Source: Candidatus Saccharimonadota bacterium
Lineage (GTDB): Bacteria > Patescibacteriota > Saccharimonadia > Saccharimonadales > UBA10212
Assembly (NCBI GenBank): GCA_019662065.1
Contig: JAIFWC010000009.1
Location: forward strand, 1 to 34,013
Direction: 5' to 3'
Length of the DNA stretch: 34,013 nucleotides
Part shown: piece after piece, positions 321-34,013 of the stretch
Numbering within the stretch: position 1 is the first letter of the stretch
Layout: every line of letters begins with the position of its first letter
Notes under the pieces: model-generated
What the model was told of the DNA's origin: nothing
Databases searched by the model: none
What the model saw: the letters and a program-made list of their open reading frames with translations, nothing else
Translations under genes and position numbers: made by a program

Positions 321-344
321 AAATAAAAGAGCGCCGCGGGCGCT
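321..344 (-). terminator. Intrinsic terminator of tiny-ORF cluster 1
   Basis: Read on the minus strand, AGCGCC-CGC-GGCGCT forms a perfect 6-bp GC-rich stem with a 3-nt loop, followed at once by CTTTTATTT. It lies about 90 bases past the last small ORF of the cluster. The equivalent site at 9148-9170 has the same stem with a shorter T run. Confidence 0.6.
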
Positions 345-395
345 GCGGATGGTTACGCGCTTTGCCCGCCTAATTGGCGGGCGCCCCTTGGCGCT
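330..395. other. Conserved stem-loop element, copy A
   Basis: AGCGCC (330-335) can pair with GGCGCT (390-395), continued inward by GGGCGC/GCGCCC. It encloses GCCCGCC (364-370), loop TAATT, GGCGGGC (376-382), a perfect 7-bp hairpin. In copy B the outer arms are a continuous 14-bp stem although several bases differ, so the structure is kept better than the sequence. It is transcribed at the 3' end of the minus-strand cluster. It could be a 3'-UTR element or a small RNA; the strand of action is not known. Confidence 0.5.
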
Positions 396-436
396 GTGCC
401 CGGACCGGACTGCCCGGGGCTTTTTCTTGAGGAGAT

Positions 437-526
437 TCACCATCGTCCCGGATCGACCTCATCCGGCCAAAAGATGAAGAGCAGGACGGCGATGACGATG
501 ATGATTAACCATCCCCACCATGGCAT
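437..526 (-). CDS. 29-residue Trp-rich membrane peptide (copy A)
   Basis: This tiny ORF begins MPWWGWLI, continues as an Ile/Val/Leu-rich hydrophobic segment (about residues 7-20) and ends FWPDEVDPGRW, with five Trp in 29 residues. It would be a single-pass membrane peptide with a short acidic tail. An AAAGAAG site precedes the ATG. The same peptide, with only two neighbouring residues swapped (VI versus IV), is encoded at 9339-9428 behind a better AAAGGAG site. It is the last gene of the cluster, directly before the structured 3' element. No family is recognised. A holin-like, regulatory or toxin-type membrane peptide is possible, but that is speculation. Its existence as a gene rests on the duplicated frame, the ribosome-binding site and the operon position. 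Confidence 0.7.
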   Translation of the reverse strand: MPWWGWLIIIVIAVLLFIFWPDEVDPGRW

Positions 527-550: not shown

Positions 551-730
551 TTACTTGCGGCGGAAGCCGATGGAAGCCATCATCCTCTGCCTTCTGGTCT
601 GGCGCTTCCTGATGAGTACTTGCTTCTTGCGACGGCGTTCGCGTTTCTTTACTTCCACGATCTCGGCGCCAGCTAAAGCTGCTGCTAGTACCGCCAACAT
701 CAGAAAGATTTTTCTCTTTCGTCGTCTCAT
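551..730 (-). CDS. 59-residue basic peptide with one hydrophobic segment
   Basis: The ORF starts MRRRKRKIFLML, has a short hydrophobic Ala/Leu stretch (about residues 8-22), and then becomes strongly basic (KKRERRRKKQ and further Arg/Lys), ending FRRK. An AAGGAG site sits 6 bases before the ATG, and the gap to the previous ORF is only 15 bases. The pattern of a positive N-terminus, hydrophobic core and AGA at residues 20-22 could be a signal or membrane anchor with a cationic tail. No homologue is recognised. The 32-residue basic ORF at 9632-9730 is comparable in charge but not alignable by eye. Its coding status is inferred from the ribosome-binding site and from head-to-tail packing with neighbours. 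Confidence 0.6.
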   Translation of the reverse strand: MRRRKRKIFLMLAVLAAALAGAEIVEVKKRERRRKKQVLIRKRQTRRQRMMASIGFRRK

Positions 731-745
731 GGCGCTCCTTGTGGG

Positions 746-805
746 TCAGCGGATGATGCGGCCATCGAGTCGCACTATATCTAATTCTTTGCTCTCGATA
801 GCCAA
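746..805 (-). CDS. 19-residue peptide with TTG start
   Basis: A TTG codon lies 6 bases after a full AAAGGAG site that begins within the TGA stop of the preceding gene. The frame runs 19 codons (ending DGRIIR) to a TGA, and the next gene's AAGGAG follows at once. The peptide is charged, with no hydrophobic segment. It may be a real micro-protein or a translated spacer that couples its two neighbours. It is too short to judge by composition, so confidence rests only on the ribosome-binding site and spacing. Confidence 0.4.
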   Translation of the reverse strand: MAIESKELDIVRLDGRIIR

Positions 806-817
806 TTTCGGCTCCTT

Positions 818-1048
818 TCAGGTGCCCAAAGCGCCTTTTGGCGGCTTAGGCCTTCGTGTCAGTAGCCGGACGAGTAGGTGCCAGGTTGCCCAGCCGGCAA
901 TTGTGCCAGCGATCAGATAACCGGTCCAGCTCCATGACAGCTGCCAATCCCGCAACCAGGCTATGATTAGCGGAATAGCGATCAGCGGCCAGAACGAGGC
1001 TACGCCAATAACGATGTGAAAGCCGTAGTATACTGCCAGCTTTTTCAC
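818..1048 (-). CDS. 76-residue two-pass membrane protein
   Basis: The start is GTG at 1048, which overlaps the TGA of the upstream ORF (GTGA, 4 bases), with a G-rich site (AGGGGG) 5 bases before it. The product has two hydrophobic segments: about residues 7-29 (FHIVIGVASFWPLIAIPLII) and about 43-62 (GYLIAGTIAGWATWHLLVRL). It ends in a basic, Pro-rich tail (TRRPKPPKGALGT). No family is recognised. In the second cluster the 70-residue protein at 9746-9958 also has two hydrophobic segments and also occupies the second position, suggesting an equivalent role without visible sequence similarity. Confidence 0.65.
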   Translation of the reverse strand: MKKLAVYYGFHIVIGVASFWPLIAIPLIIAWLRDWQLSWSWTGYLIAGTIAGWATWHLLVRLLTRRPKPPKGALGT

Positions 1049-1206
1049 TTGGACCCCCTTCGGGACATGTCGCGGTCGTGATAGATATAGCCGCCTCTCC
1101 TAACCCTTGTCAGCCGATTGAGAATCCGGATTGGCCAAGGCAGGTAGGCAATGGATATGAAGGGCCAGGCGTAGTTTGGCCTAAGCTTCCTAAGTTCTTT
1201 TACCAA
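1045..1206 (-). CDS. 53-residue basic peptide, first gene of cluster 1
   Basis: The proposed start is TTG at 1206, preceded by AGGAGAG at a normal distance; no ATG fits. The frame gives 53 residues (VKELRKLRPNYAWPF at the start, then PWPIRILNRL, ending RRGSK) and its TGA overlaps the GTG of the next gene by 4 bases, the usual sign of translational coupling. The leader from the predicted promoter is about 60 bases. There is a moderately hydrophobic middle (residues 13-29) in a strongly basic protein. No family is recognised. Confidence 0.5.
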   Translation of the reverse strand: MVKELRKLRPNYAWPFISIAYLPWPIRILNRLTRVRRGGYIYHDRDMSRRGSK

Positions 1207-1275
1207 TGAACTCTCCTCGAGTTAGAAAGAGCTAAACTTCAGTTCTGCTTGACATTGCCGAAATTTCTAAACCAT

Positions 1276-1304
1276 ATTTTACCACAATACTAACTCTTTA
1301 GCAA
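1276..1304 (-). promoter_or_regulatory. Promoter of tiny-ORF cluster 1
   Basis: On the minus strand TTGCTA (1299-1304), a 17-base spacer and TAAAAT (1276-1281) form a good sigma-70-type promoter. The same hexamers, the same spacing and the downstream TATGGTTTAGAAATTTCGG are found in front of cluster 2 (10200-10228), while the spacers differ. This selective conservation supports its function. Confidence 0.7.
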
Positions 1305-1316
1305 CAGATGGATTAC

Positions 1317-1344: not shown

Positions 1345-1366
1345 TATGCTTAAGTTAAACCAAAAA

Positions 1367-3913
1367 ATGGCCCTAACTAATATAAACAACCGAACACCGC
1401 TTATAGGTTCATTGCTGAGGCATAAGAACCAATTTTCTAAGCCGCAACTAGCGGTTTTTGTAATTGTTTTTGGCATAATCGGCTACATAATTTTTAAATC
1501 ATTTGCCATCGGGCCACTAGTGGCTAGCCTGGAGGCCGAACAAATGGTTTTGCCGAGCGGCGCTTCTATATTAAATGATTCAGCCGCTTCTTCTGGGCGC
1601 GACATAATTTTAGCCACTAACGGTACAGCCAATGGCACCGTAAATTTTCCTTCATCAGTTAATTCATTGACAATTGTGGCTAAGGGCGGCCAGTGTTCTG
1701 GCGCGCCGGCTATGACTGTTTCGCTAGATGGCTCTAATGTACTAGCTAGTACCGCAGTGTCTAGCACTTCTTGGACTAGCTATTCGGCCAACTTGGCCAA
1801 TACTATTGGGACTGGCAACCATAACTTAGCCATTAGTTTTAGCAATGATTACACAAAGACCCACGGTAATAAAATCCAGTGTTCGCGTGACTTATATGTA
1901 GATATCACTAATTTTTATGGGCCTAACCCACTGCCAACCCCAGCGCCAACCGTCAGCCTATCGGTCAGCCCGTCAAATGTGACGGCCGGCCAAGCCTCAA
2001 CCCTGACTTGGAACTCGGCCAATGCCGATAGTTGCACGGCTTCTGACGCCTGGTCTGGACCCCAATCGACTCAAGGCTCTACCTCTACCGGTGCCTTAAA
2101 CCAAACCAGCACCTATACCTTAAGTTGTAGCGGTCTTGGCGGCAGTACCACCGCCAAAGCTGTAGTCACTGTCAGCAGTGGCAGTTGTTTGAGCTCAACT
2201 ACCGCCTGGCAAAATAATCCATTATCTAGCCAAAGCGGCACCTTTACACAAGTATTTAGCCTAATACCTAATGCTGCTAATATTGATGCCGACATAGGCT
2301 TCTCGGCCAGTCCGGCCGGAGCCTACACTGATTTAGCAACAATAGTCGAGTTTAACACTAGCGGCAACATTGTGGCCCGTAATGGTGGCGGCTACAGCGC
2401 GGTTACACCACTGGCATATAGCGCTGGTGTATCCTATTCAGTCAGAATGGTGGTTAATGTGCCAGCTCACACTTATAGTGTATATGTAACTCCAACTGGT
2501 GGTTCCGAAGTAACTATCGCCTCTAATTACAGCTTTAGGACAGAACAGTCTGGCGTTAGCCAACTGGGCAACTGGGCAACTGTATCAAGTATTGGTAGCG
2601 AAAAAGTCTGCGGACTGCCGGTGAACACCACACCTCCACTTCCGACTGAGGGCTCCGGCCAAGTTGGCTGCGTCGGGCCAAGCTGCGCTGGTAAGTTACC
2701 GGCGCCAGATACCTCAAAAGGTACTAAGTACTATATATCCAACGGCGGTAGCCTGGGCAACAGCGGTACTTCGGCCAGCAGCCCATGGCCCTTCAGCCAA
2801 GCCAGTGCCTCGCTATATAAGCCGGGCGACAGTGTTAATTTTGCTTGTGGCCAAAGTTTTGGTTTCTTAAATGTTAATGTTTCGGGTACCAGCGGTTTAC
2901 CAGTTATCTTTCAGACCGATGGAACCTGCGGCCAGGCAACTTTTGCTGGCATTGACGTACCCGGCCGCAGCTGGGTGACACTTTATAACATCAAATCGTA
3001 TGTTACTGGCTACTTAAACAGTAGTTATCAGTCCTTTGGAACTACCATTGCGCTTGAAGTCGATGCTCCTAGCAGCCATGTAACTGTTCAGGGTAGCGAC
3101 TTATCAACCAGCAAAGGAGTCGGCAGTGATGCCATTGCAGCAGGTAACACTAGCAATAGTAATATTAGTTATTTAACAATCGATAGCACCAATATTCATG
3201 ATGCTGGCGATACGGCCGTATACCTCTACGGCACCAATAACTTGGTGCAATACAGCAAGTTCTATAATAATGGCGGCAAATGCCCGACTGGCTGCGGCAC
3301 TCACCACATCTACATGAAGGCCGAAAACTCCACCTTTGCCTTCAATGATTTTGGAACAGTTAGCAGTGGTCAGAGCCTTAGCTTGCGCCGCACCAGCTCT
3401 ACTATTTATGGTAATTTGTTCCACGATAATGATTATCCGTTATCATATTTTGCCGAGGTATCAGGCGGTGGTACCACCTTGATTTACAATAACCGCTTCC
3501 AAAACACTAATGGTTATATGATATGGATCGATGGCTCAGACAGCGATTATCTCGGGGCACCAAATATTAATTTAGTTTGGGCTAGTAATACGATTCAGGG
3601 CAACAGCTCCGACTACCTGTTTCCGATTTATAGGAATAAAGGCACTTTTAAGGCTTACAACAACATTGCTATGGGCAGCTGGGTCGGTGCCATCAATGGT
3701 GGTAGCGCTAGTGTGAGCCAATCTAATAATCTTTGGTTCACAGCTAGTGGTATTGGTGCCGGCCCAGACTATTTACTCCAAATCGGTAGCAACGCCATTA
3801 ATACCGGTACAGTTAATGTATCTGGCTTAAACTACACCAATGATTGTAACGGTAAGCCTCTAAGTTACTGTTTAGGCTCACCGGATATTGGCGCCCGTGA
3901 GTCTAATTTGTAA
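1367..3913 (+). CDS. Secreted CBM-Ig-beta-helix protein, putative polysaccharide lyase/hydrolase
   Basis: I take the start at ATG 1367 (848 residues) because the promoter's transcription start lies downstream of the ATG at 1346. Visible modules: N-terminal anchor (about residues 26-46, ending GYIIFKSFA); a CBM36/60-like carbohydrate-binding module (about 54-187) with ASLEAEQ, GAPAMTVSLDG, FSNDYTK and CSRDLYVD, the ND and RDLYVD parts resembling the calcium and ligand site of that family; an Ig-like module (about 193-272); a jelly-roll/LamG-like stretch (about 275-415, with YSVRMVVNVPAHTYSVYV); and a long right-handed beta-helix (about 451-848) with repeated short Asn/Gly/Ser strands. Beta-helices of this type occur in pectate-lyase-like enzymes, but I cannot point to catalytic residues, so adhesin is an alternative. 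The N-terminal half is shared with the proteins at 4098, 10588 and 32974. Confidence 0.8.
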   Translation: MALTNINNRTPLIGSLLRHKNQFSKPQLAVFVIVFGIIGYIIFKSFAIGPLVASLEAEQMVLPSGASILNDSAASSGRDIILATNGTANGTVNFPSSVNSLTIVAKGGQCSGAPAMTVSLDGSNVLASTAVSSTSWTSYSANLANTIGTGNHNLAISFSNDYTKTHGNKIQCSRDLYVDITNFYGPNPLPTPAPTVSLSVSPSNVTAGQASTLTWNSANADSCTASDAWSGPQSTQGSTSTGALNQTSTYTLSCSGLGGSTTAKAVVTVSSGSCLSSTTAWQNNPLSSQSGTFTQVFSLIPNAANIDADIGFSASPAGAYTDLATIVEFNTSGNIVARNGGGYSAVTPLAYSAGVSYSVRMVVNVPAHTYSVYVTPTGGSEVTIASNYSFRTEQSGVSQLGNWATVSSIGSEKVCGLPVNTTPPLPTEGSGQVGCVGPSCAGKLPAPDTSKGTKYYISNGGSLGNSGTSASSPWPFSQASASLYKPGDSVNFACGQSFGFLNVNVSGTSGLPVIFQTDGTCGQATFAGIDVPGRSWVTLYNIKSYVTGYLNSSYQSFGTTIALEVDAPSSHVTVQGSDLSTSKGVGSDAIAAGNTSNSNISYLTIDSTNIHDAGDTAVYLYGTNNLVQYSKFYNNGGKCPTGCGTHHIYMKAENSTFAFNDFGTVSSGQSLSLRRTSSTIYGNLFHDNDYPLSYFAEVSGGGTTLIYNNRFQNTNGYMIWIDGSDSDYLGAPNINLVWASNTIQGNSSDYLFPIYRNKGTFKAYNNIAMGSWVGAINGGSASVSQSNNLWFTASGIGAGPDYLLQIGSNAINTGTVNVSGLNYTNDCNGKPLSYCLGSPDIGARESNL

Positions 3914-4097: not shown

Positions 4098-5327
4098 ATG
4101 CAAGAACAAGAAAAAGCTAAGACCGCTCAAACCAACAATAAATCATCCTTACTCAGACACACTTCTAGATTCTCTCGGGCTCAGCTAGCCATCATAATTT
4201 TAGTATTTGCAGCCGTTGGCGGCTATATTTTGTGGCAGAGCTTTGCGGCCGGCACCCCAGTATCGAGCTTAGAGGCCGAGCAAATGATACTGCCAGCTGG
4301 CGGCAGTGTGATTACCGACGCTAATGCCTCTGGCGGCAAGGCTGTGGACTTATCGACTAATGGTTCGGCCACTGGCTCGGTTAACTTTGCCTCGGCCATT
4401 ACTTCGCTGACTATTACTGCTCGTGGTGGGCAGTGCCAGGGCGCACCCCAGATGGTCATAAGCCTTGATGGAGCCAGCCTGATTAATACTTCGGTTAGCA
4501 CTACTTCTTGGACGGCTTACAATGCTACGGCCAACTATGCGGCCGGCACTCATAGCCTATCGGTTAGCTTTCCTAACGACTTTACTAAATCCAAGGGTAA
4601 AAGATCCTGTTCCAGAGATTTATACTTAGACGTGACTAACTTTTACGGCAATGTCACACCGCCGCCGGCCGCACCAACCGTCAGCTTAAGCGCTTCGCCA
4701 ACTAGTGTCAGCGCCGGCCAAGCCGCCACCCTAACTTGGAATTCATCTAATGCCACCGCTTGCGCCGCCTCTGGCGCCTGGAGCGGCAGCCAGCCGACCA
4801 GCGGTAGCACCAGTACTGGTGCCCTAAACCAAACCTCTAGCTACACCCTAACTTGCACCGGCAGCGGTGGCAGTACTAGTGCTACTACCTCTGTTGCAGT
4901 CACTGCGCCAGTAATTCCGCCGGCCCCAACCATTTACTTCAATCCGCCCAGCCAAAACTTTAGCGTAGGCTCGACCTTTACGATTGATATCAGGGAAAAC
5001 AGCGGCTCGGCCACAGTTAACGCCGTGCAGGCCAACTTTTCCTATCCTAGCGATAAGCTGACATTTGTCAGCGCCGACGCCAGCGCCAGCCCATTTACTA
5101 CTGAGGCCCAAAATACTGGCAGCAATGGTCAAGTTAGCTTAGCCCGCGGTATAATTGGCAGCTTAAGCGGTGACCAGCTAATCTCTAAAATTACCTTCAA
5201 AGTTAATGTTGCTGGAGTGGCTAACCTATCGTTTGTAAATGGCACCGCCTTAATTAGCTCAACCTCTAACCAAAACATCATTGGCTCACTAGCGGCTGAC
5301 GGCATCGGCGTCTACACTCTACAGTAG
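4098..5327 (+). CDS. Anchored CBM-Ig-cohesin protein
   Basis: 409 residues. Modules in order: basic cytosolic tail, membrane anchor/signal (about residues 28-50, ending GGYILWQSFAA), CBM36/60-like module (about 55-187: SSLEAEQ, GAPQMVISLDG, FPNDFTK, CSRDLYLD), Ig-like module (about 190-272: SLSASPTSVSAGQ, GALNQTSSYTLTC), and a cohesin-like module to the end (about 275-409). The cohesin call rests on PTIYFNPPSQ, FTIDIRENSGSATVNAVQAN, FSYPSDKLTFVS and GDQLISKITFKV, which follow the usual cohesin order of beta strands; the same phrases recur in 5401-6972 and 7097-8716. Expected role: bind glycan through the CBM and offer a cohesin as docking site at the surface. The promoter at 4014 makes it a unit of its own; it converges on the dockerin gene. 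Confidence 0.8.
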   Translation: MQEQEKAKTAQTNNKSSLLRHTSRFSRAQLAIIILVFAAVGGYILWQSFAAGTPVSSLEAEQMILPAGGSVITDANASGGKAVDLSTNGSATGSVNFASAITSLTITARGGQCQGAPQMVISLDGASLINTSVSTTSWTAYNATANYAAGTHSLSVSFPNDFTKSKGKRSCSRDLYLDVTNFYGNVTPPPAAPTVSLSASPTSVSAGQAATLTWNSSNATACAASGAWSGSQPTSGSTSTGALNQTSSYTLTCTGSGGSTSATTSVAVTAPVIPPAPTIYFNPPSQNFSVGSTFTIDIRENSGSATVNAVQANFSYPSDKLTFVSADASASPFTTEAQNTGSNGQVSLARGIIGSLSGDQLISKITFKVNVAGVANLSFVNGTALISSTSNQNIIGSLAADGIGVYTLQ

Positions 5328-8725: not shown

Positions 8726-8791
8726 ACGAGGACGGCGATTTTATATCATCCCAACCAAGAATTTGACGGCGTGGCTTGGGCGTCAAAATAA
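8726..8791 (+). pseudogene. 5' relic of a paralogue of the thioredoxin-like gene at 10266
   Basis: The frame reads TRTAILYHPNQEFDGVA and then leaves homology (WASK, stop). The gene at 10266 begins MRTVILYHPNQEFAGVA. The nucleotide match is about 42 of 51, with many differences at third positions, so this is an old relic of a paralogue and not a fresh copy. The start codon is ACG instead of ATG, and no promoter is visible. It overlaps the 3' end of the minus-strand ORF 8746-9018. Confidence 0.65.
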
Positions 8792-9018
8792 TCAACTATC
8801 TGCCTGGCTATATCTATCTCTTTTTTATCGACTGACAGCATTGCGCCGTGGGCTAAACCGGCCAAACGCGCCTTACTGACACCAGTTTCATAGGGATAGG
8901 CATAAGTTATACCTTCTGGCGAAACACCGTTCAAGCGCCGCGAAATAATAGAGTCTTCCTCTGAGCTCTCGACTTTGATATTCACCCAGTTACCATTATC
9001 TCTTGGCTGAAATTCCAT
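8746..9018 (-). CDS. Unidentified 90-residue cytosolic protein
   Basis: It begins MEFQPRDNGNWVNIKVESS and contains a mixed alpha/beta-looking sequence (ITYAYPYETGVSKARLAGLA, VDKKEIDIARQIVDYF) with no membrane segment. A consensus TATAAT lies 7 bases before the ATG, matching the leaderless pattern of other genes here. The last nine or so residues (ATPSNSWLG) are read antisense through the thioredoxin-like relic, so the original C-terminus may have been lost at a recombination junction near 8778. No family is recognised. Confidence 0.5.
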   Translation of the reverse strand: MEFQPRDNGNWVNIKVESSEEDSIISRRLNGVSPEGITYAYPYETGVSKARLAGLAHGAMLSVDKKEIDIARQIVDYFDAQATPSNSWLG

Positions 9019-9025
9019 GTCTTCA

Positions 9026-9031
9026 ATTATA
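9026..9031 (-). promoter_or_regulatory. -10 element, leaderless start of ORF 9018
   Basis: TATAAT on the minus strand, separated from the ATG at 9018 by 7 bases (9019-9025), so the transcript should begin at or next to the start codon. No convincing -35 is seen. Confidence 0.5.
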
Positions 9032-9078
9032 CGCGCAAATGGCCGCCGCTTTTTATAAGGGAAAGGTAGTATCGCCGG

Positions 9079-9149
9079 TTCCGCTGATAGGCGGAATCTG
9101 GATTTATTCCAGAAGGCGCGTTGAAGGAAAACCGTAGGTTGTCCTTCAA
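9079..9149. other. Three consecutive perfect or near-perfect hairpins
   Basis: TTCCGC/GCGGAA (9079-9096), TCTGGA/TCCAGA (9097-9113), and TTGAAGGA-AACC/GGTT-TCCTTCAA (9121-9149, 12 pairs with one mismatch and loop GTA). They sit between a minus-strand ORF and the cluster 2 terminator and contain no gene. They could be the tail of the cluster 2 transcript or a separate structured RNA. Confidence 0.45.
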
Positions 9150-9170
9150 TTTAAAAGCGCCGAGGGCGCT
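9148..9170 (-). terminator. Intrinsic terminator of tiny-ORF cluster 2
   Basis: On the minus strand AGCGCC-CTC-GGCGCT is followed by TTTAAATT. It has the same stem as the cluster 1 terminator, with a shorter T run. Confidence 0.45.
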
Positions 9171-9219
9171 GCGGATAAACCGCGCTTTGCCCGCCTAATT
9201 GGCGGGCGCCCTTGGCGCT
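9156..9219. other. Conserved stem-loop element, copy B
   Basis: AGCGCCGAGGGCGC (9156-9169) pairs with GCGCCCTTGGCGCT (9206-9219) over 14 positions with one G-T pair. Inside are GCGG-ATAAA-CCGC (9171-9183) and the 7-bp hairpin GCCCGCC-TAATT-GGCGGGC (9189-9207). Compared with copy A the bases differ in the outer arms but the pairing is kept. The branched shape suggests a folded RNA at the 3' end of the cluster. Confidence 0.5.
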
Positions 9220-9222
9220 ATG

Positions 9223-9293
9223 CCCGGTAGTGAGCTTTCGCGTGGCTATGCTAGCGTCCGCGTACGCGGATATCGCGAAAGTTTACTACCGGG
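9223..9293. repeat. Palindromic insert with 20-bp arms
   Basis: The left arm (9223-9242, CCCGGTAGTGAGCTTTCGCG) pairs with the right arm (9274-9293) in all 20 positions, two of them G-T. The loop holds a second perfect hairpin, TCCGCG-TA-CGCGGA (9257-9270). Copy A lacks this block. TGCCCGG occurs on both sides of it (9221-9227 and 9299-9305), like a short target duplication. It resembles a small miniature mobile element or a cruciform-forming site; no transposase is near. Confidence 0.6.
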
Positions 9294-9338
9294 TGTGGTG
9301 CCCGGACCGGACTGCCCGGGGCTTTTTCTTGAGGAGAT

Positions 9339-9428
9339 TCACCATCGTCCCGGATCGACCTCATCCGGCCAAAAGATGAAGAGCAGGACGGCGACGATGA
9401 TGATGATTAACCATCCCCACCATGGCAT
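9339..9428 (-). CDS. 29-residue Trp-rich membrane peptide (copy B)
   Basis: Begins MPWWGWLI, followed by a run of Ile and Val, then LLFIFWPDEVDPGRW. It is the same peptide as at 437-526 apart from the order of two residues. A full GAAAGGAG site precedes the ATG by 6-7 bases. It is the last gene of cluster 2, and the structured element follows. A single membrane span with an acidic, Trp-containing end is predicted. Longer frames through this region (67 and 78 residues) ignore this ribosome-binding site and are not preferred. Confidence 0.72.
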   Translation of the reverse strand: MPWWGWLIIIIVAVLLFIFWPDEVDPGRW

Positions 9429-9445
9429 CTTGTGCTCCTTTCGGA

Positions 9446-9616
9446 TCAGGCGAGTTTTCCGCGCTTCCAGCGCCACCACGCCAAGAAGTACTGACGTCGC
9501 GTCTCGCCGAATTGCGGCTGCCAAATCGGACGAGCTCCGCAAACACGTTCAAGCCCTTCATCGTGATATGCCTGGTCTGGAATGATGCCAGACCCAACTC
9601 TTTGGACTGTTCTCAC
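9446..9616 (-). CDS. 56-residue Trp/Arg-rich small protein
   Basis: GTG start at 9616, 4 bases after AAAGGAG. It begins (V)RTVQRVGSGIIPDQAYH and ends FLAWWRWKRGKLA. There is no clear membrane span, but the C-terminus is aromatic and cationic, as in membrane-active peptides. Gap to the next gene is 17 bases, filled by another AAAGGAG linker. The N-terminal RTVQR resembles RTVRR of the 52-residue ORF at the head of this cluster, a weak hint of common origin. No family is recognised. Confidence 0.6.
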   Translation of the reverse strand: MRTVQRVGSGIIPDQAYHDEGLERVCGARPIWQPQFGETRRQYFLAWWRWKRGKLA

Positions 9617-9631
9617 GGTGCTCCTTTCGGG

Positions 9632-9730
9632 TCAGCGCTTTTTGCGGCGTTTTTTCTTCTGTTTCTTGAAGCCCTGTTGGACGATTGAGTCCTTCAGTGC
9701 TTTCTTGGACTCCCGCGGCGTTTTAGCCAT
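9632..9730 (-). CDS. 32-residue highly basic peptide
   Basis: It reads MAKTPRESKKALKDSIVQQG and then a Lys/Arg-only tail (FKKQKKKRRKKR), with a net charge of well over +10. AGAGGA precedes the ATG by 5 bases. A nucleic-acid- or ribosome-binding role is possible from charge alone, with no further support. It is the third gene of cluster 2, in the middle of the variable part. Confidence 0.55.
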   Translation of the reverse strand: MAKTPRESKKALKDSIVQQGFKKQKKKRRKKR

Positions 9731-9745
9731 TTTGATCCTCTCGGT

Positions 9746-9958
9746 TCAGCGTTGAAAGGCGGTGAACCGCCCGATTGAGACAATTAGGAACACCATCGTT
9801 CCTACACACAAGGAGATGACGATTGTCTGCGGCGCCGAGACTCCGAAAGCCAGAAACGTGGCCCAGAACATCAACCACGCCCCATTGAAGCAGAACTCTG
9901 CGACCTGGTCATCAAGCCGGTCGCTGAAGGGCAGAACCAACTTTTTCAAGAGATTCAT
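9746..9958 (-). CDS. 70-residue two-pass membrane protein
   Basis: It begins MNLLKKLVLPFSDRLDDQ. Two hydrophobic segments follow, about residues 25-40 (GAWLMFWATFLAFGVSA) and 43-62 (QTIVISLCVGTMVFLIVSIG). AAAAAGGAG lies 4 bases before the ATG. It is second in its cluster, like the two-pass protein at 818-1048, but no sequence match is apparent. The size and topology would fit a holin-like or small regulatory membrane protein; neither is demonstrated. Confidence 0.65.
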   Translation of the reverse strand: MNLLKKLVLPFSDRLDDQVAEFCFNGAWLMFWATFLAFGVSAPQTIVISLCVGTMVFLIVSIGRFTAFQR

Positions 9959-9973
9959 TTTGCTCCTTTTTGG

Positions 9974-10132
9974 TCAACGGTGTCTAAAGAGCCGGCCGAG
10001 ATTCCTGATAAACAAGTGGACACTGGAGCGCTTCGTGGCCTCTGGATCCTCAGTCCACTCATCAAGGACTTTACCACTCTCGTCCACCAGTTGTTTGTAC
10101 TCGACGCCGTGCCGTCTGACAGTTCTGATCAT
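9974..10132 (-). CDS. 52-residue charged protein, first gene of cluster 2
   Basis: It begins MIRTVRRHGVEYKQLVDESG, then KVLDEWTEDPEATKRSS, and ends RNLGRLFRHR. It is soluble-looking and rich in both acidic and basic residues. GAGGAG lies 5 bases before the ATG, and the leader from the cluster promoter is about 60 bases. No family is recognised. The gap of 15 bases to the next gene again contains an AAAAAGGAG linker. Confidence 0.6.
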   Translation of the reverse strand: MIRTVRRHGVEYKQLVDESGKVLDEWTEDPEATKRSSVHLFIRNLGRLFRHR

Positions 10133-10199
10133 GTTTTCTCCTCACAGGAAAGAGCTAAACCTCAGCTCCTTTGACGGCTAACCGAAATTTCTAAACCAT

Positions 10200-10228
10200 A
10201 TTTTACAATGTTCATAACTCCTTAGCAA
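10200..10228 (-). promoter_or_regulatory. Promoter of tiny-ORF cluster 2
   Basis: On the minus strand TTGCTA (10223-10228), 17 bases, TAAAAT (10200-10205), then TATGGTTTAGAAATTTCGG and a conserved TTTAGCTCTTTC in the leader. The same arrangement precedes cluster 1. It is divergent from the thioredoxin-like gene. Confidence 0.7.
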
Positions 10229-10252
10229 CAGAGGAAAGTCTCAGGATTTTGA

Positions 10253-10587: not shown

Positions 10588-12282
10588 ATGCCACCACTAG
10601 AAACCGAAGATATGTCTAAAACTAAAACCAAACTATCCAAAAAGGATTTACTCAAACACGCCAGCTCGCTATCCAGGGCTCATTTATTAGTAGTCGTGGC
10701 TGTTTTTGGCCTAGTTGGCGGTTATTTCCTTTACCGTAGTTTCGCCGCCTCCCCCCTGGTCGCTAGCCTGGAAGCCGAACAGATGATCCTACCGACTGGT
10801 GGCAGTGTCGTGACTGACACTGGTGCCTCGGCCGGCAAAGCCATCCTGCTATCTACCAACGGCACGGCGACTGGCTCAGTTAATTTCCCCAGCCAAGTCA
10901 CTAGCTTGACTGTCGTAGCCAAAGGCAGCCAGTGCCAGGGCGCCCCGACTATGAGCGTGTCCTTAGACGGCGCTAGCCTCCTGAGCGGTACAGCTGTTTC
11001 TACTACCACCTGGACCAGCTACTCGGCAACTCCGTCCAACCCGATTAATTCCGGCACCCATAACTTATCTATCTCCTTTGCCAATGACTACACTAAGAAT
11101 AAAGGCAACCCTAGAAACCAATGCTCTAGAGCCCTTTATCTGGATGTCACCAGCTTCTATGGCCCAACTCCAGCCCCGATTCCAGCCCCAACAGTCACCC
11201 TATCTGCTTCTCCCACATCCGTCACCGCCGGCCAAGCTTCTACTCTTACCTGGAATAGCACTAACGCGACAAGCTGCACAGCATCAGGTGCCTGGTCCGG
11301 CCCCCAACCAACTGCCGGCTCAACCAGCACCGGCGCCTTAAACCAAAACTCCAGCTATACCTTAACCTGCACCGGGGCAGGGGGAGCGGCTAGTGCCAGT
11401 GCGACAGTAACAGTGACAACTCCACCACCCCCACCACCACCCCCACCATCTTCATCTGGTATCTTAACTGGCGCCCATTGGCCCAGCACCACTGACTTTT
11501 CAACCATTAAGAATGTCGGTTATGGCTTTGCGGTTGAAACCTTTAACCCAGGTGATTCAGCTGGCTTAAAGGCCAAACTCGATGCTGCTGACGCTAACGG
11601 CTTAAAGCTCATTATTGGCATGTATCCAGAGCCTTATTCGATGGATTCATCTGGTAACTGGACAATTTCGGCAGCCGGGATTCAGTCCTTGAACCAATTA
11701 GCCGCCCGGTCGTCCTCTGTCTTAGCCCTGTTTGTATACAATGAGCCACTATATATTAGCCCGCTAACTGGAGCGTCGGATTCTTGTGGAGCTATGTCAG
11801 CCGCCCAGCTGCGTGGCCTACGGACCAAGATCCAGTCGGTCTGGGCCGGCGCTAAAATCTACCACGATCTGGGCCAACCAGCCCAGTGGGCGCCAGGCGG
11901 CACGCTTTATAACAGCTACCCTTGCATAGGCAGCAAATACGCCGACTTTAGCGGGGTTGCCGACTATGTTGGCGTTTGGGATTACCCGTTCAAATCAACC
12001 GGTTACCAAAAAACCCAGGCTCTGGCTAGCTTAAGTCGTGAATCTAGTTACGTGATTAACTCCATGCGGGCCATTCCGGTATGGCTCGATCAAGGCCACT
12101 CGGGAGTGGAAGGGCTAGTCTGGCCGACACAGGCCCAGATACTGGATTGGAATTGTTCTAGCCGAGCCGCCCTACCGGCCGGCAGCCTGATATCCTGGTA
12201 TGTCTGGGAGCAATCTATTTATCCGGACTACCTCAAGAAACATCCCGAAATGTGGTCGTCAACCACAGCCTCGGCCTGCTAG
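10588..12282 (+). CDS. Secreted CBM-Ig-TIM barrel protein, putative glycoside hydrolase
   Basis: 564 residues. Anchor (about residues 32-53, ending GGYFLYRSFAA); CBM36/60-like module (about 58-192: ASLEAEQ, GAPTMSVSLDG, FANDYTK, CSRALYLDVTSFYG); Ig-like module (about 195-280); a run of prolines; then a barrel-like domain (about 293-564). The barrel has strands such as GYGFAVETF, GLKLIIGMYPEP and VLALFVYNEPLY. NEP at about 385-387 is the usual acid/base motif at strand 4 of clan GH-A hydrolases; Glu near 541 (WYVWEQS) is a candidate for the second catalytic acid. The family is not assigned. ATG 10612 (MSKTKTK) is an alternative start; the leader has no Shine-Dalgarno site, and TAAAAC lies 9 bases before 10588. 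Confidence 0.75.
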   Translation: MPPLETEDMSKTKTKLSKKDLLKHASSLSRAHLLVVVAVFGLVGGYFLYRSFAASPLVASLEAEQMILPTGGSVVTDTGASAGKAILLSTNGTATGSVNFPSQVTSLTVVAKGSQCQGAPTMSVSLDGASLLSGTAVSTTTWTSYSATPSNPINSGTHNLSISFANDYTKNKGNPRNQCSRALYLDVTSFYGPTPAPIPAPTVTLSASPTSVTAGQASTLTWNSTNATSCTASGAWSGPQPTAGSTSTGALNQNSSYTLTCTGAGGAASASATVTVTTPPPPPPPPPSSSGILTGAHWPSTTDFSTIKNVGYGFAVETFNPGDSAGLKAKLDAADANGLKLIIGMYPEPYSMDSSGNWTISAAGIQSLNQLAARSSSVLALFVYNEPLYISPLTGASDSCGAMSAAQLRGLRTKIQSVWAGAKIYHDLGQPAQWAPGGTLYNSYPCIGSKYADFSGVADYVGVWDYPFKSTGYQKTQALASLSRESSYVINSMRAIPVWLDQGHSGVEGLVWPTQAQILDWNCSSRAALPAGSLISWYVWEQSIYPDYLKKHPEMWSSTTASAC

Positions 12283-12364
12283 ATAAATATTAGTCGTTAA
12301 TTTTCGAAACATCGTCCTTGAGGCCATAGTTCCAAAAAACTATGCCTTTCATGGCACGAAGCTA

Positions 12365-12370
12365 TATAAT
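12365..12370 (+). promoter_or_regulatory. ileS: -10 element that decides the ileS start
   Basis: TATAAT lies inside the longer ileS frame, 10 bases before the ATG at 12381. Transcripts from here would start about 3 bases before that ATG and lack the ATGs at 12342 and 12351. Confidence 0.5.
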
Positions 12371-12380
12371 TACTCCTGAT

Positions 12381-15284
12381 ATGGCGGAGAGTAAGAAGCA
12401 TTTCCTTGCTGAAATTGAAGAGCATCTGCTCAAGATTTGGCAAAAGGAAAAAACCTTTGAGAAAAGTCTAGATAATCGCAAGGGCGGGGAACTGTTCAGT
12501 TTCTATGATGGCCCGCCGTACGCTAACGGCACGCCGCACTACGGCCACTTGGAACAAACCACCATCAAGGACACGGTTACCCGATATAAAACCATGCGCG
12601 GCTTCTACGTGCCGCGGCGGGTCGGCTGGGATACCCACGGCTTGCCGATTGAGTATGCCCTGGAGAAAGAGCACGGCTTTAAGGGCAAGCAGGACATCGT
12701 GGCCTACGGCATCGCCAAGTTTAACCAAGAATGCCGCGACAGCGTCTTTAAATATAAGGATGTCTGGGAAAAGATGTTCCACCGCGTCGGGCGCTGGGCG
12801 GACTATGACAATGCCTATGCAACCCTCGATGAGAGCTACATAGAGAGCGTCTGGTGGGTTTTTAAGACTATCTACGATAAAGGCTATGTTTATAAGGATT
12901 TCCGGTCTTCTCCGTACTGTCCGCGCTGCGCCACGCCGCTAAGCAACTTTGAGCTCAACCAAGGCTACCAAGACAACATACCGGACCCCAGCTTATACGT
13001 TAAATTCAAGCTCAAGGGCCAGGACGCCTATCTGTTAGGCTGGACTACTACTCCTTGGAGCCTGCCTGGCAACGCCGCCATTGCCGTTAAGCCCGATGCC
13101 CAGTATGTTTACGTAAAGCTAAAAGATGATGATGGTAAGGAAGAGGTGTTGATCTTGTCCCGTGACCGGCTGGAGGCCTTAAATGTTGATGATTATCACA
13201 TCCAAAAAGAACTGGCCGGCCAGCAGCTGGTGGGCCTGGAATATGAGCCTTTATTTGAACTCAGGGACAAGGGTGACGAAACTAAAGATTTATACAAAGT
13301 GTGGGCGGCCGAATTTGTTAGTATCGAAGATGGCTCGGGTATTTTGCACGTGGCGCCAGCCTTTGGCGAAGACGATCTGTCGCTGGCCAAAGACCATAAC
13401 CTACCGGTGTTTTTGACGGTCGATGAAAATGGCCATGTGGTCACCAACCAGGGGCTGCCAGAAGAAATTGCCGGCAAGTTCTTTAAGGGTGCCGATGAGC
13501 CGATTATCGCCCACCTCACCCATAAAAACCTGGTTTATTCAGCCGAAACCTTCACCCACACCTATCCGTTCTGCTGGCGCTGCGACACCCCGCTGCTGTA
13601 CTACGCCACCGATAACTGGCTGGTTAGAGTTACAGATTTTAAAGATGCTTTAGTCGGCAACAATATGCAGGTCAATTGGACACCGGGGCATATCCAAACC
13701 GGACGGTTTGGCAAGTGGTTAGATAATGCCCGCGACTGGGGTATATCGCGCAACCGTTTCTGGGGTGCGCCGCTACCGATCTGGGTAACTGATGACGGCG
13801 AAGTGACGGTTATTGGCTCGGTCCAAGAGCTTAAAGAAAAAGCGGTCAACCCGGCTAAAGTCGGCGATTTACATCGGCCGTTTATTGATGAGGTCGAAAT
13901 CAAGACCGACAGCGGCAAAATCGCCAAGCGCATACCAGAGGTGTTTGATGTCTGGTTTGAAAGTGGCAGCATGCCTTACGGCCAAGATCATTACCCCTTC
14001 GAAAATGCCAAGGAGTGGGAAAAGGGTTTCCCAGCGACTTTCGTAGCCGAGGCGATTGACCAAACCCGCGGCTGGTTTTACACCTTACACGTGCTGGGGA
14101 CCGCCTTGTTTGATAAACCGGCCTTCCAAAACGTTATCTGTAGCGGCTGGATTGTGGCCGCCGACGGTGAAAAGCTATCTAAGCGCAAGAAGAACTACGC
14201 GCCGATGGACGAGGTGTTTGACCAATATGGCGTGGACACTATGCGCTATTTTATGGCCAGCTCACCGCTGATGAATGGTGAAGACACTCGCTTTTCGGTC
14301 GATTTTCTACGCGACACCCAGCGGCAGGTGTTCATGAGCTTTAATAATATCTACAGTTTCTACAAGCTCTACGCCGATGTCGATAAATGGCAGCCTAAGA
14401 ACCCCTTAAAAGAACCTAAAAGCCAGAGTTTGTTAGACCAGTGGGTACTGGCCCGGCTAAACCAAGCAGTGGCCGAAGTTACAGCTGGCATGGAAGAATA
14501 CCGCTTAGATAAGGGCGCCCGGCCAATCGCTGAGCTGTTAGATGACGTGTCCAACTGGTATGTCCGGCGTTCGCGACGCCGGTTTTGGAGGAGCGAAGAC
14601 GATGATGACAAGGTTACCGCATATGAGACATTGCACTATGTAATCCTGCGCACAGCTCAACTTTTAGCCCCGTTCGCACCATTCCTGAGCGACCATATTT
14701 GGCGCGATTTGGTGCAGGGGACTGATTTGCCCAAATCGGTCCATTTGAGCGACTGGCCATCTGTTAATGAGCCATTAGATACTAGCCGTATAATGCTAGA
14801 GAACATGGCTAACGCCCGAGTCTTAATCACCGAAGGTTTAGCCCAACGGGCGGCAGCTGGCATCAAAGTCCGCCAGCCTTTGGCCAAGGCTACAGTCAGG
14901 GGGCTGGAGCTATCGCCAGCCCTGCAGCAAATCATGGCCGAGGAGCTGAACGTCAAAGAAATTATCAACCAGGGGGGCGGTGAGGTCAGCGTAACTATGG
15001 ATACAGAAATGACTCCAGAATTGAAGGCCGAAGGCCTAGCGCGCGACCTGATACGCCAGGTTCAAAATGCCCGTAAAACTGCTGGCTTTAACGTCGACGA
15101 CCGTATCCACTTGAGCTTAAAAACCTCATCCAAAGAAGTAAACGACGCCATAAACCAGTTTAAAGACCTGATTTACACCGAAACCCTGACCACCAGCGAG
15201 CTAAGCGGTAAAGGCGAACACACCGAAACCTTCAAGCTAGACGGCCACTCAGTCGAATTACATATCTCGAGAGTCAGAGGATAA
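12381..15284 (+). CDS. ileS: Isoleucyl-tRNA synthetase (eukaryote-type)
   Basis: Charges tRNA-Ile with isoleucine in the cytosol. The frame opens at 12342 (980 residues), but I prefer ATG 12381 (967 residues, MAESKKHFLAEIEEHLLKIW) because of the TATAAT just upstream. Visible motifs: YDGPPYANGTPHYGH (class I HIGH motif, about residues 42-56), GWDTHGLPIE, the editing-domain TTPWSLPGN and HVAPAFGEDD, and KLSKRKKNY (about 597-605), the KMSKS loop. HYGH with KLSKRKKNY marks the IleS2/eukaryote-like clade, whose members are often insensitive to mupirocin. There is full class I architecture with an anticodon-binding region and a C-terminal extension. No T-box leader fits in the short upstream gap. 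Confidence 0.95.
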   Translation: MAESKKHFLAEIEEHLLKIWQKEKTFEKSLDNRKGGELFSFYDGPPYANGTPHYGHLEQTTIKDTVTRYKTMRGFYVPRRVGWDTHGLPIEYALEKEHGFKGKQDIVAYGIAKFNQECRDSVFKYKDVWEKMFHRVGRWADYDNAYATLDESYIESVWWVFKTIYDKGYVYKDFRSSPYCPRCATPLSNFELNQGYQDNIPDPSLYVKFKLKGQDAYLLGWTTTPWSLPGNAAIAVKPDAQYVYVKLKDDDGKEEVLILSRDRLEALNVDDYHIQKELAGQQLVGLEYEPLFELRDKGDETKDLYKVWAAEFVSIEDGSGILHVAPAFGEDDLSLAKDHNLPVFLTVDENGHVVTNQGLPEEIAGKFFKGADEPIIAHLTHKNLVYSAETFTHTYPFCWRCDTPLLYYATDNWLVRVTDFKDALVGNNMQVNWTPGHIQTGRFGKWLDNARDWGISRNRFWGAPLPIWVTDDGEVTVIGSVQELKEKAVNPAKVGDLHRPFIDEVEIKTDSGKIAKRIPEVFDVWFESGSMPYGQDHYPFENAKEWEKGFPATFVAEAIDQTRGWFYTLHVLGTALFDKPAFQNVICSGWIVAADGEKLSKRKKNYAPMDEVFDQYGVDTMRYFMASSPLMNGEDTRFSVDFLRDTQRQVFMSFNNIYSFYKLYADVDKWQPKNPLKEPKSQSLLDQWVLARLNQAVAEVTAGMEEYRLDKGARPIAELLDDVSNWYVRRSRRRFWRSEDDDDKVTAYETLHYVILRTAQLLAPFAPFLSDHIWRDLVQGTDLPKSVHLSDWPSVNEPLDTSRIMLENMANARVLITEGLAQRAAAGIKVRQPLAKATVRGLELSPALQQIMAEELNVKEIINQGGGEVSVTMDTEMTPELKAEGLARDLIRQVQNARKTAGFNVDDRIHLSLKTSSKEVNDAINQFKDLIYTETLTTSELSGKGEHTETFKLDGHSVELHISRVRG

Positions 15285-32973: not shown

Positions 32974-34013
32974 ATGGCAAAAAACCCAAAACCTAAGAAA
33001 GAGAAAAAAATGGATCCAAGTAACAGCTCTAAATCCGTGGCGGCTTGGTCGCCTTTTAAACGGACTAGTTTTTCACGCAATCAACTCATAGCTTTTGCAC
33101 TAGTGTTTGCCGTGATTGGCGGCTATATTTTATATCGCACCTTTGCCTCTGCTCCCTTAGTAGCTACACTCGAAGCCGAACAAATGATCTTACCGGTCAG
33201 CGGCTCAGTAGTTACTGATACCAGCGCCAGCAGTGGCAAAGCCGTATTTATATCTACAAACGGCACTGCTACCGGCAGCCTTAACCTGCCATCCAACGTC
33301 ACTTCGCTGACAGTTGTCGCCAAGGGCGTGCAGTGCTCTGGGGCACCAACTATGACTATGGCTATCGATGGCTCTAATACTATGACCAATATGGCGGTAT
33401 CCTCCACAGCTTGGGCCTCATATTCAGCCTCGGTTAACCTTAATGCCGGAACCCATAGCGTAGCCTTGAGCTTTACTAATGACTACAATAAAACTCGCGG
33501 CAACAGCCGTAATAGCTGCACGCGCGACCTTTATATAGATGTCTCTAACTTCTTTGGTCCTAGCGCTGTTACCCCAGCCCCCACTGTGTCTCTTAGCGCT
33601 TCACCTACCAATGTTAGTGCCGGCGGCTCCTCGACCCTCACGTGGGCTTCAACCGACGCTAATACTTGTATGGCTAGTGGTGCCTGGTCTGGCTCCCAGC
33701 CAACCACTGGTTCAACTAGCACTGGAGCCATTAACCAAAATTCCGTCTATACCTTAACTTGCACAGGTCCTGGGGGTTCTGGCAGTGCTTCGGCTACCGT
33801 CACAGTCAATGGCACTTTAGCTATCATACCGGCTAGCTTAGCGACGGCGACTGTTGGCCCGGCCTACACTCAATCCTTTAGTACAACCGGTGGTTCTAAC
33901 CCGCCATATAGCCTTAGGGTCACCCAAGGCACGCTGCCTAACGGCTTGTCTTTTACTGGCTCGACCCTAGCTGGTACACCGACCACCGCTGGAACCTATG
34001 CCTTCACTTTCCC
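32974..34013 (+). CDS. Secreted CBM-Ig-putative Ig protein (partial, cut by window end)
   Basis: At least 346 residues; the frame is open to the window end. It begins MAKNPKPKKEKKMDPS; Met13 (33010) is an alternative start. Anchor (about residues 37-58, ending GGYILYRTFAS), CBM36/60-like module (about 61-190: ATLEAEQ, GAPTMTMAIDG, FTNDYNK, CTRDLYIDVSNFFG), Ig-like module (about 195-275, SLSASPTNVSAGG), and then a He_PIG-type putative Ig module (PASLATATVGPAYTQSFSTT, GTLPNGLSF, STLAGTPTTAGTYAF) that is cut by the window edge. It is the fourth member of the family at 1367, 4098 and 10588, placed about 20 kb away from the others. It has the strongest promoter in the window. Confidence 0.8.
   Translation, partial: MAKNPKPKKEKKMDPSNSSKSVAAWSPFKRTSFSRNQLIAFALVFAVIGGYILYRTFASAPLVATLEAEQMILPVSGSVVTDTSASSGKAVFISTNGTATGSLNLPSNVTSLTVVAKGVQCSGAPTMTMAIDGSNTMTNMAVSSTAWASYSASVNLNAGTHSVALSFTNDYNKTRGNSRNSCTRDLYIDVSNFFGPSAVTPAPTVSLSASPTNVSAGGSSTLTWASTDANTCMASGAWSGSQPTTGSTSTGAINQNSVYTLTCTGPGGSGSASATVTVNGTLAIIPASLATATVGPAYTQSFSTTGGSNPPYSLRVTQGTLPNGLSFTGSTLAGTPTTAGTYAFTF

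Follow-up and report, generated by a model that had tools for sequence, protein, structure and literature searches.

Two small operons on one contig of a Saccharibacteria genome open with a similar promoter and close with almost the same gene, and they differ in everything between. Does this layout record the ordinary divergence of duplicated genes, or does it mark places where whole gene sets are exchanged? The window analysed here is the complete 34,013-nucleotide contig C10 of the source genome (G000), a 0.68 Mb assembly in 71 contigs with 87% completeness. Our preferred reading, to which we give a probability of roughly 60%, is that the two clusters belong to a class of cargo operons at fixed sites, which keep their ends while their gene sets are replaced whole between species.

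Architecture of the two clusters

Cluster 2 spans positions 9153-10232 and cluster 1 about 322-1308, both on the minus strand (Table 1). They follow the same plan of five small genes between a promoter and tandem 3' hairpins, and the source genome holds only these two copies. The cluster 2 promoter is of the sigma-70 type by its sequence. Its reading frames form a chain of six members led by Shine-Dalgarno (SD) sites, namely the five genes and a spurious 17-codon leader ORF, and none of 3,000 first-order Markov random sequences reaches such a chain. The cluster 1 chain is weaker and is matched by 2-5% of random sequences. At the 3' side, the palindromic insert of cluster 2 sits between the two hairpins that both clusters have. 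Rfam returned no match in the window.

Table 1. Positions of the cluster features, the blocks common to both clusters, and copies of a genus-wide repeat (window coordinates unless a locus is given)
Feature	Position	Strand	Remarks
Common block, promoter/leader (cluster 2 vs cluster 1)	10232-10148 vs 1308-1225	-	86 bp, 80% identity (blastn)
Common block, last gene and first hairpin	9445-9298 vs 543-396	-	148 bp, 98% identity (blastn)
Common block, terminator hairpin	9227-9153 vs 403-327	-	77 bp, 88% identity (blastn)
Cluster 2 promoter, -35 TTGCTA	10223-10228	-	read directly; inside the 80%-identical block common to cluster 1
Cluster 2 promoter, -10 TAAAAT	10200-10205	-	17-bp spacer
Cluster 2 leader	10133-10199	-	9-bp stem-loop ahead of the ribosome site (predicted fold)
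Cluster 2 ORF 1	9974-10132	-	52 aa, charged, without membrane helix, no known family
Cluster 2 ORF 2	9746-9958	-	70 aa, hydrophobic (membrane), SD AAAGGAG, no relatives found
Cluster 2 ORF 3	9632-9730	-	32 aa, very basic
Cluster 2 ORF 4	9446-9616	-	56 aa, basic, GTG start
Cluster 2 last gene	9339-9428	-	29-aa single-membrane-helix peptide MPWWGWLIIIIVAVLLFIFWPDEVDPGRW; in the 98%-identical DNA block
Cluster 2 3' hairpin 1	9298-9323	-	noncoding, identical in cluster 1
Cluster 2 palindromic insert	9222-9297	-	~80 nt, 26-bp stem, absent from cluster 1
Cluster 2 3' hairpin 2 and U-run	9153-9219	-	intrinsic terminator, 88% identical in cluster 1
Cluster 1 promoter and leader	1225-1308	-	TTGCTA 1304-1299, 17 bp, TAAAAT 1281-1276
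Cluster 1 ORF 1	1045-1206	-	53 aa, TTG start
Cluster 1 ORF 2	818-1048	-	76 aa, hydrophobic (membrane), GTG start
Cluster 1 ORF 3	746-805	-	19 aa, TTG start, MAIESKELDIVRLDGRIIR
Cluster 1 ORF 4	551-730	-	59 aa, basic, one hydrophobic segment
Cluster 1 last gene	437-526	-	29-aa peptide, two residues differ from the cluster 2 copy
Cluster 1 3' hairpins	322-420	-	tandem hairpins and terminator U-run
~200-nt repeat	L012:7926-8140	-
~200-nt repeat	L147:3510-3725
~200-nt repeat	L211:1470-1672
~200-nt repeat	L180:4240-4440	-
~200-nt repeat	L107:9300-9480	-
~200-nt repeat	L108:4025-4240

Constant ends and unrelated interiors

A blastn comparison of the two clusters finds exactly three common blocks, and the interior is without a match. 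This agrees with the preliminary description, which held that the promoter hexamers, parts of the leader, the 29-residue peptide and a 3' element recur in cluster 1, and that the four inner ORFs (52, 70, 32 and 56 codons) do not align with those of the other cluster. Local alignments of all inner-ORF cross pairs, scored against shuffled sequences, give z values of 1.5 or less, against 25 for the 29-residue peptide. In an ungapped power simulation, homologues at 25% identity are recovered in 92-98% of cases for proteins of 52, 70 and 56 residues, and in only 52% for the 32-residue protein. At the 3' end, 43 noncoding bases are identical in the two clusters. The preliminary description had named plain drift from a common ancestor as the result that would overturn it; because no similarity appears despite this power, and because those 43 noncoding bases are identical, drift of the inner genes now seems unlikely from the sequences.

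The two ends also differ from each other. The block at the 3' end is 98% identical and the block at the 5' end 80%, so the ends do not have one common history. The simplest reading of these two values is that the last gene and its terminator may have been copied recently between the two loci. The idea that the clusters travel as one mobile unit was considered and rejected, since the ends differ in age and nothing is common beyond the stretch from promoter to terminator.

The last gene has one relative outside the source genome. In congener G002, a peptide of 27 residues with 65% identity is encoded at a different locus, by the second gene of a two-gene mini-operon that lies between proS and a gene that, from reading its sequence, we take to encode a CPBP-type membrane protein. 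The same site is empty in the source genome and in congener G001, where only about 100 bp separate the two genes. When 392 genomes of the order were searched with a degenerate pattern of the gene, matches appeared in the source genome and G002 only. Phage and plasmid records gave no match to the cluster DNA or to the peptide. Weaker protein matches (L005-L010) were set aside, as all have E values above 0.006 and two of them (L007, L009) look like parts of unrelated genes.

Phage peptides that start with MPWWGW and continue into a membrane helix recur in many viral contigs (L021-L077). The 58 viral MPWWGW matches were also rejected as relatives of the 29-residue peptide, though many of them are short single-helix peptides. 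In phages, this start followed by a helix is apparently a convergent route to a tiny membrane protein.

Occupied and empty sites across the family

Genome scans for chains of short, SD-led ORFs that encode membrane segments covered most of the source genome and G002 and part of G001. The first genome-wide scan overlooked both clusters and the second overlooked cluster 1, in each case through long spurious antisense ORFs. The mini-operons have a recurrent plan: each lies on the strand opposite to its neighbour gene, with its promoter back-to-back with that of the neighbour (frr, trx, gyrB and others), and each carries strong ribosome sites, two to five small genes mostly for membrane proteins, and tandem 3' hairpins.

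The gap between tsf and frr gives the widest view. It contains an antisense mini-operon in 8 of 16 genomes of the Saccharibacteria family (G000, G001, G002, G005, G007, G009, G014, G015), is empty in five with gaps of about 5-150 bp (G003, G008, G011, G012, G013), and has other content in the remaining three (G004, G006, G010). Within each of the genera g3 and g10, occupied and empty sites both occur. All eight units point the same way, and their gene content is different in every species: the products have 33, 104, 38, 40 and 36 residues in the source genome, 146, 45 and 44 in G001, and 57, 33, 41 and 39 in G002. These eight species conserve the block in which a putative frr -10 element and, on the opposite strand, the mini-operon promoter lie. 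One genome per species was compared, and the differences in gene set are seen between species only. The preliminary description's view of constant ends around an exchanged interior thus holds, and it reaches further than the two clusters from which it was drawn.

Other sites show the same variation. Upstream of gyrB, the source genome and G002 hold different mini-operons, and gene number varies at orthologous sites among the relatives. At the trx site, where cluster 2 lies in the source genome, G002 has another unit, oriented divergently to the trx-like gene. Its promoter reads TTGCTA-17-TAGAAT; it encodes a membrane protein of 40 residues and, from a CTG start, a basic protein of 78, ends in a double hairpin and is without the 29-residue gene. 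No mini-operon is seen at the trx site of G001 or at the other 22 trx loci, where some contigs stop close to the gene.

Predicted folds place a stem-loop ahead of the ribosome site in the leaders examined, other mini-operons included, and make the 3' ends hairpin-rich in all 13 units examined. The tails contain two or three strong predicted hairpins, the last usually followed by a U-run, which G005 lacks. Tandem hairpins are a tendency, typical of the units but not exclusive to them, because about 10% of ordinary gene ends also have two strong hairpins and because several tails form a single fold when domains are counted strictly. The stop codon of tsf directly adjoins the terminator's A/T tract in the source genome and G002, so this terminator probably works in both directions.

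An assembly break offers a further observation. The ends of contigs C1 and C58 of the source genome (L116 and L126) terminate in the same ~98 bases, which hold a ribosome site and the start of a 119-residue membrane protein. Because the assembly breaks inside this mini-operon-like unit, the unit may be repeated or strain-variable.

Cargo, composition and mobility

Scans of the cluster 1 and 2 proteins with Pfam, NCBIfam, PHROGs and PADLOC yield no credible family, and no viral relatives of the 70- and 76-residue proteins were found. The toxin or immunity cassettes proposed in the preliminary description thus find no counterpart, as none of these scans gave a toxin, immunity or defence match. 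Short membrane proteins or basic peptides that have no relatives make up most of the products across the wider class. Two cargo genes belong to known families: a CDP-alcohol phosphatidyltransferase in the tsf–frr unit of G005 (PF01066, 4e-17), and, in G002, a prophage-type DUF1660 protein of 42 residues from the gyrB unit (PF07874 at Pfam's cut-off; phrog_2670, 2.6e-5).

The composition of the cluster genes is distinctive. TGA is the stop codon of nine of the ten, whereas in the genome as a whole it closes 40 of 360 genes and, among conserved short genes, 19 of 121. Their GC3 is 0.63, compared with 0.50. This combination suggests an outside source or a different selection regime. By trinucleotide composition only cluster 2 is clearly unusual (98.6th percentile), with cluster 1 at the 66th and the tsf–frr unit at the 46th. 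An intercistronic motif, TGACCCGAAAGGAGCA, occurs in 23 viral contigs and its scrambled control in 9.

Integrase, packaging and capsid genes are absent from the ORFs around the two clusters, and family scans of the cargo show no mobility genes in clusters or units. Each genome has one tyrosine recombinase, on another contig, away from all units and probably a Xer protein. A satellite element, also suggested at the outset, is accordingly unlikely, and the units do not resemble prophages either. The competence gene comEC is present in the source genome and G002; it was not found in the incomplete G001.

Other features of the contig and genus

Several further features lie on the contig or recur in the genus. 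On the far side of cluster 2, positions 8728-8775 (+) partly repeat, in diverged form, the opening ~45 bases of the trx-like gene (10266); a 90-residue minus-strand ORF (8746-9018) ends inside this partial copy, which may be the scar of a locus rearrangement. An intergenic repeat of ~200 nt, with the conserved core TTGTAAAACAGTCTGxCCTTGGGTGCGAGGAGCTGTTTGACGA ... GAGGAGTTCT, has several copies in the genus (Table 1). It has no Rfam match at loci L012, L107 and L180, and may be an undescribed structured RNA or repeat element. A second repeat, ATTGAAGGACAACCTACGGTTTTCCTTCAACGC, with further hairpins, is found at window positions 9026-9156 (-), at L195:9674-9772 and at L180:10868-10962 (-). One copy comes after the cluster 2 terminator and another after that of a mini-operon located where contig C30 ends; a third, on contig C45, adjoins a tRNA-like stretch.

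The window also encodes four paralogous surface-type proteins (1346-3913, 4098-5327, 10588-12282 and 32974-34011). A membrane anchor and an N-terminal part of ~200 residues are common to all four, whose C-terminal parts differ; this is another constant-plus-variable arrangement on the same contig. The ileS product (12342-15284) is 83% identical to that of G002 and only 43% identical to that of G001 within the same genus; for the other genes compared, identity between G002 and G001 is 58-83%. To judge from these identities, ileS has probably been replaced in one lineage.

Possible origin and proposed renewal of the units

Duplication within the genome is one rival explanation for the pairing of the clusters: the two would be paralogues whose inner genes diverged fast while gene conversion kept the 3' ends alike. 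Gene number is equal, the second gene is hydrophobic in both, and the lengths run in parallel (cluster 2/cluster 1: 52/53, 70/76, 32/19, 56/59, 29/29), a caution that the interiors could be old, extremely diverged paralogues. Positional pairs nevertheless have no residual similarity, though 25% identity would nearly always be detectable in three of the four; a hydrophobic segment occurs in gene 4 of cluster 1 only, and relatives do not keep gene number at orthologous sites. We therefore regard such a duplication as rather unlikely. It is improbable that the units matter as antisense noncoding transcripts, or as regulators of the housekeeping genes beside them, with incidental or newly born ORFs. 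Their constant antisense, back-to-back placement and the lack of known protein families in the two clusters fit that idea, but the compact ORF tiling of cluster 2 is not reached by random sequences, the 29-residue peptide is conserved as a protein between species, and some of the cargo genes in other units fall into real families.

The interiors might instead be phage-derived morons, brought in or left behind by phages that infect Saccharibacteria or their actinobacterial hosts. The DUF1660 match, the recurrence of MPWWGW-plus-helix starts in phage contigs, and the TGA stops, high GC3 and viral occurrences of TGACCCGAAAGGAGCA all point in that direction. Set against them are the absence of phage structural or integration genes nearby, the lack of viral relatives for the 70- and 76-residue proteins and of any phage or plasmid record match, and the phosphatidyltransferase carried by one tsf–frr unit; a phage origin is thus possible but doubtful. 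Least credible is an integron-like or other site-specific cassette system with the 3' hairpins as recombination sites, which we hold to be very improbable. Long imperfect inverted repeats do end each unit, but the only tyrosine recombinase per genome is encoded elsewhere, the repeats mostly finish in U-runs like terminators and differ in sequence between units, and inspection by eye of the cluster 1 and 2 tails reveals no GTTRRRY-type attC core.

Replacement of whole gene sets at fixed sites could work as follows. A unit would retain its ends because they act as expression signals, in part those of the flanking genes, while the inner set would be replaced whole between species: DNA would enter through the competence system and recombine either in the flanks or within the conserved ends. 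The likeliest route is transformation: the genus has comEC, and experiments with the laboratory Saccharibacterium S. epibionticum show natural transformation by way of this gene, the DNA recombining through flanks about 1 kb long (PMC10633639). The units are probably strongly expressed. Judged by its hydrophobicity and turnover, the cargo would most likely work at the cell envelope and serve in conflicts that change fast, such as phage exclusion, bacteriocin immunity or host contact. A bolder and tentative proposal, which we advance with considerable reserve, is that the family keeps always-antisense expression sites beside housekeeping genes and swaps sets of tiny membrane proteins between lineages, as a distributed, fast-changing means of coping with phages, rival bacteria or the bacterial host.

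These sites matter for several reasons. The genomes are reduced and ultrasmall, yet the family devotes space to short operons that are repeatedly replaced at the same places. If this is adaptive, the sites would show where in a presumed episymbiont selection runs fastest, and would point directly to small membrane proteins. They also illustrate a way in which gene content could be renewed in competent bacteria that have few mobile elements, and such exchange could be read across lineages at one simple locus, the tsf–frr gap.

Comparison with known systems

The open-access papers searched on small-protein or hypervariable operons in Saccharibacteria give no account of these operons. The closest known concept is the minimal mobile element (MME) of Neisseria, in which variable cassettes lie between conserved genes, without mobility genes, and are missing in some lineages. 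MMEs are described as aiding the horizontal exchange of gene cassettes (PMC2649163). Like them, the tsf–frr insert varies between conserved flanking genes in three congeners and five further genomes, and one site may hold unrelated inserts or none across lineages, again without mobility genes. Unlike MMEs, the units described here are always antisense and bring their own conserved promoter block and tandem terminator hairpins. Their cargo is very small, consists mostly of membrane-protein genes, and varies between species only as far as seen, and two loci of one genome have a last gene in common.

Other systems match in part. Phage morons are self-contained promoter-gene-terminator units of foreign composition, with small membrane proteins among their products. 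The present units are likewise self-contained from promoter to terminator; unlike morons, they lie outside any prophage at repeated, fixed housekeeping sites, and most of their cargo is without viral relatives in the collections searched. Integron cassettes are interchangeable small gene units, each ending in an imperfect inverted repeat. Here, by contrast, no integrase is nearby and no attC core was seen, and each unit has several genes and its own promoter and forms no array. The VARTIG modules of Thermococcales combine a constant gene with unique sets of other genes, recombine between lineages and are suspected to serve in conflict (PMC8416519). The two clusters resemble them in joining a constant gene to variable sets; VARTIG modules centre on a large Ig-domain protein, whereas the constant gene here encodes a 29-residue peptide at the 3' end and is missing at most sites.
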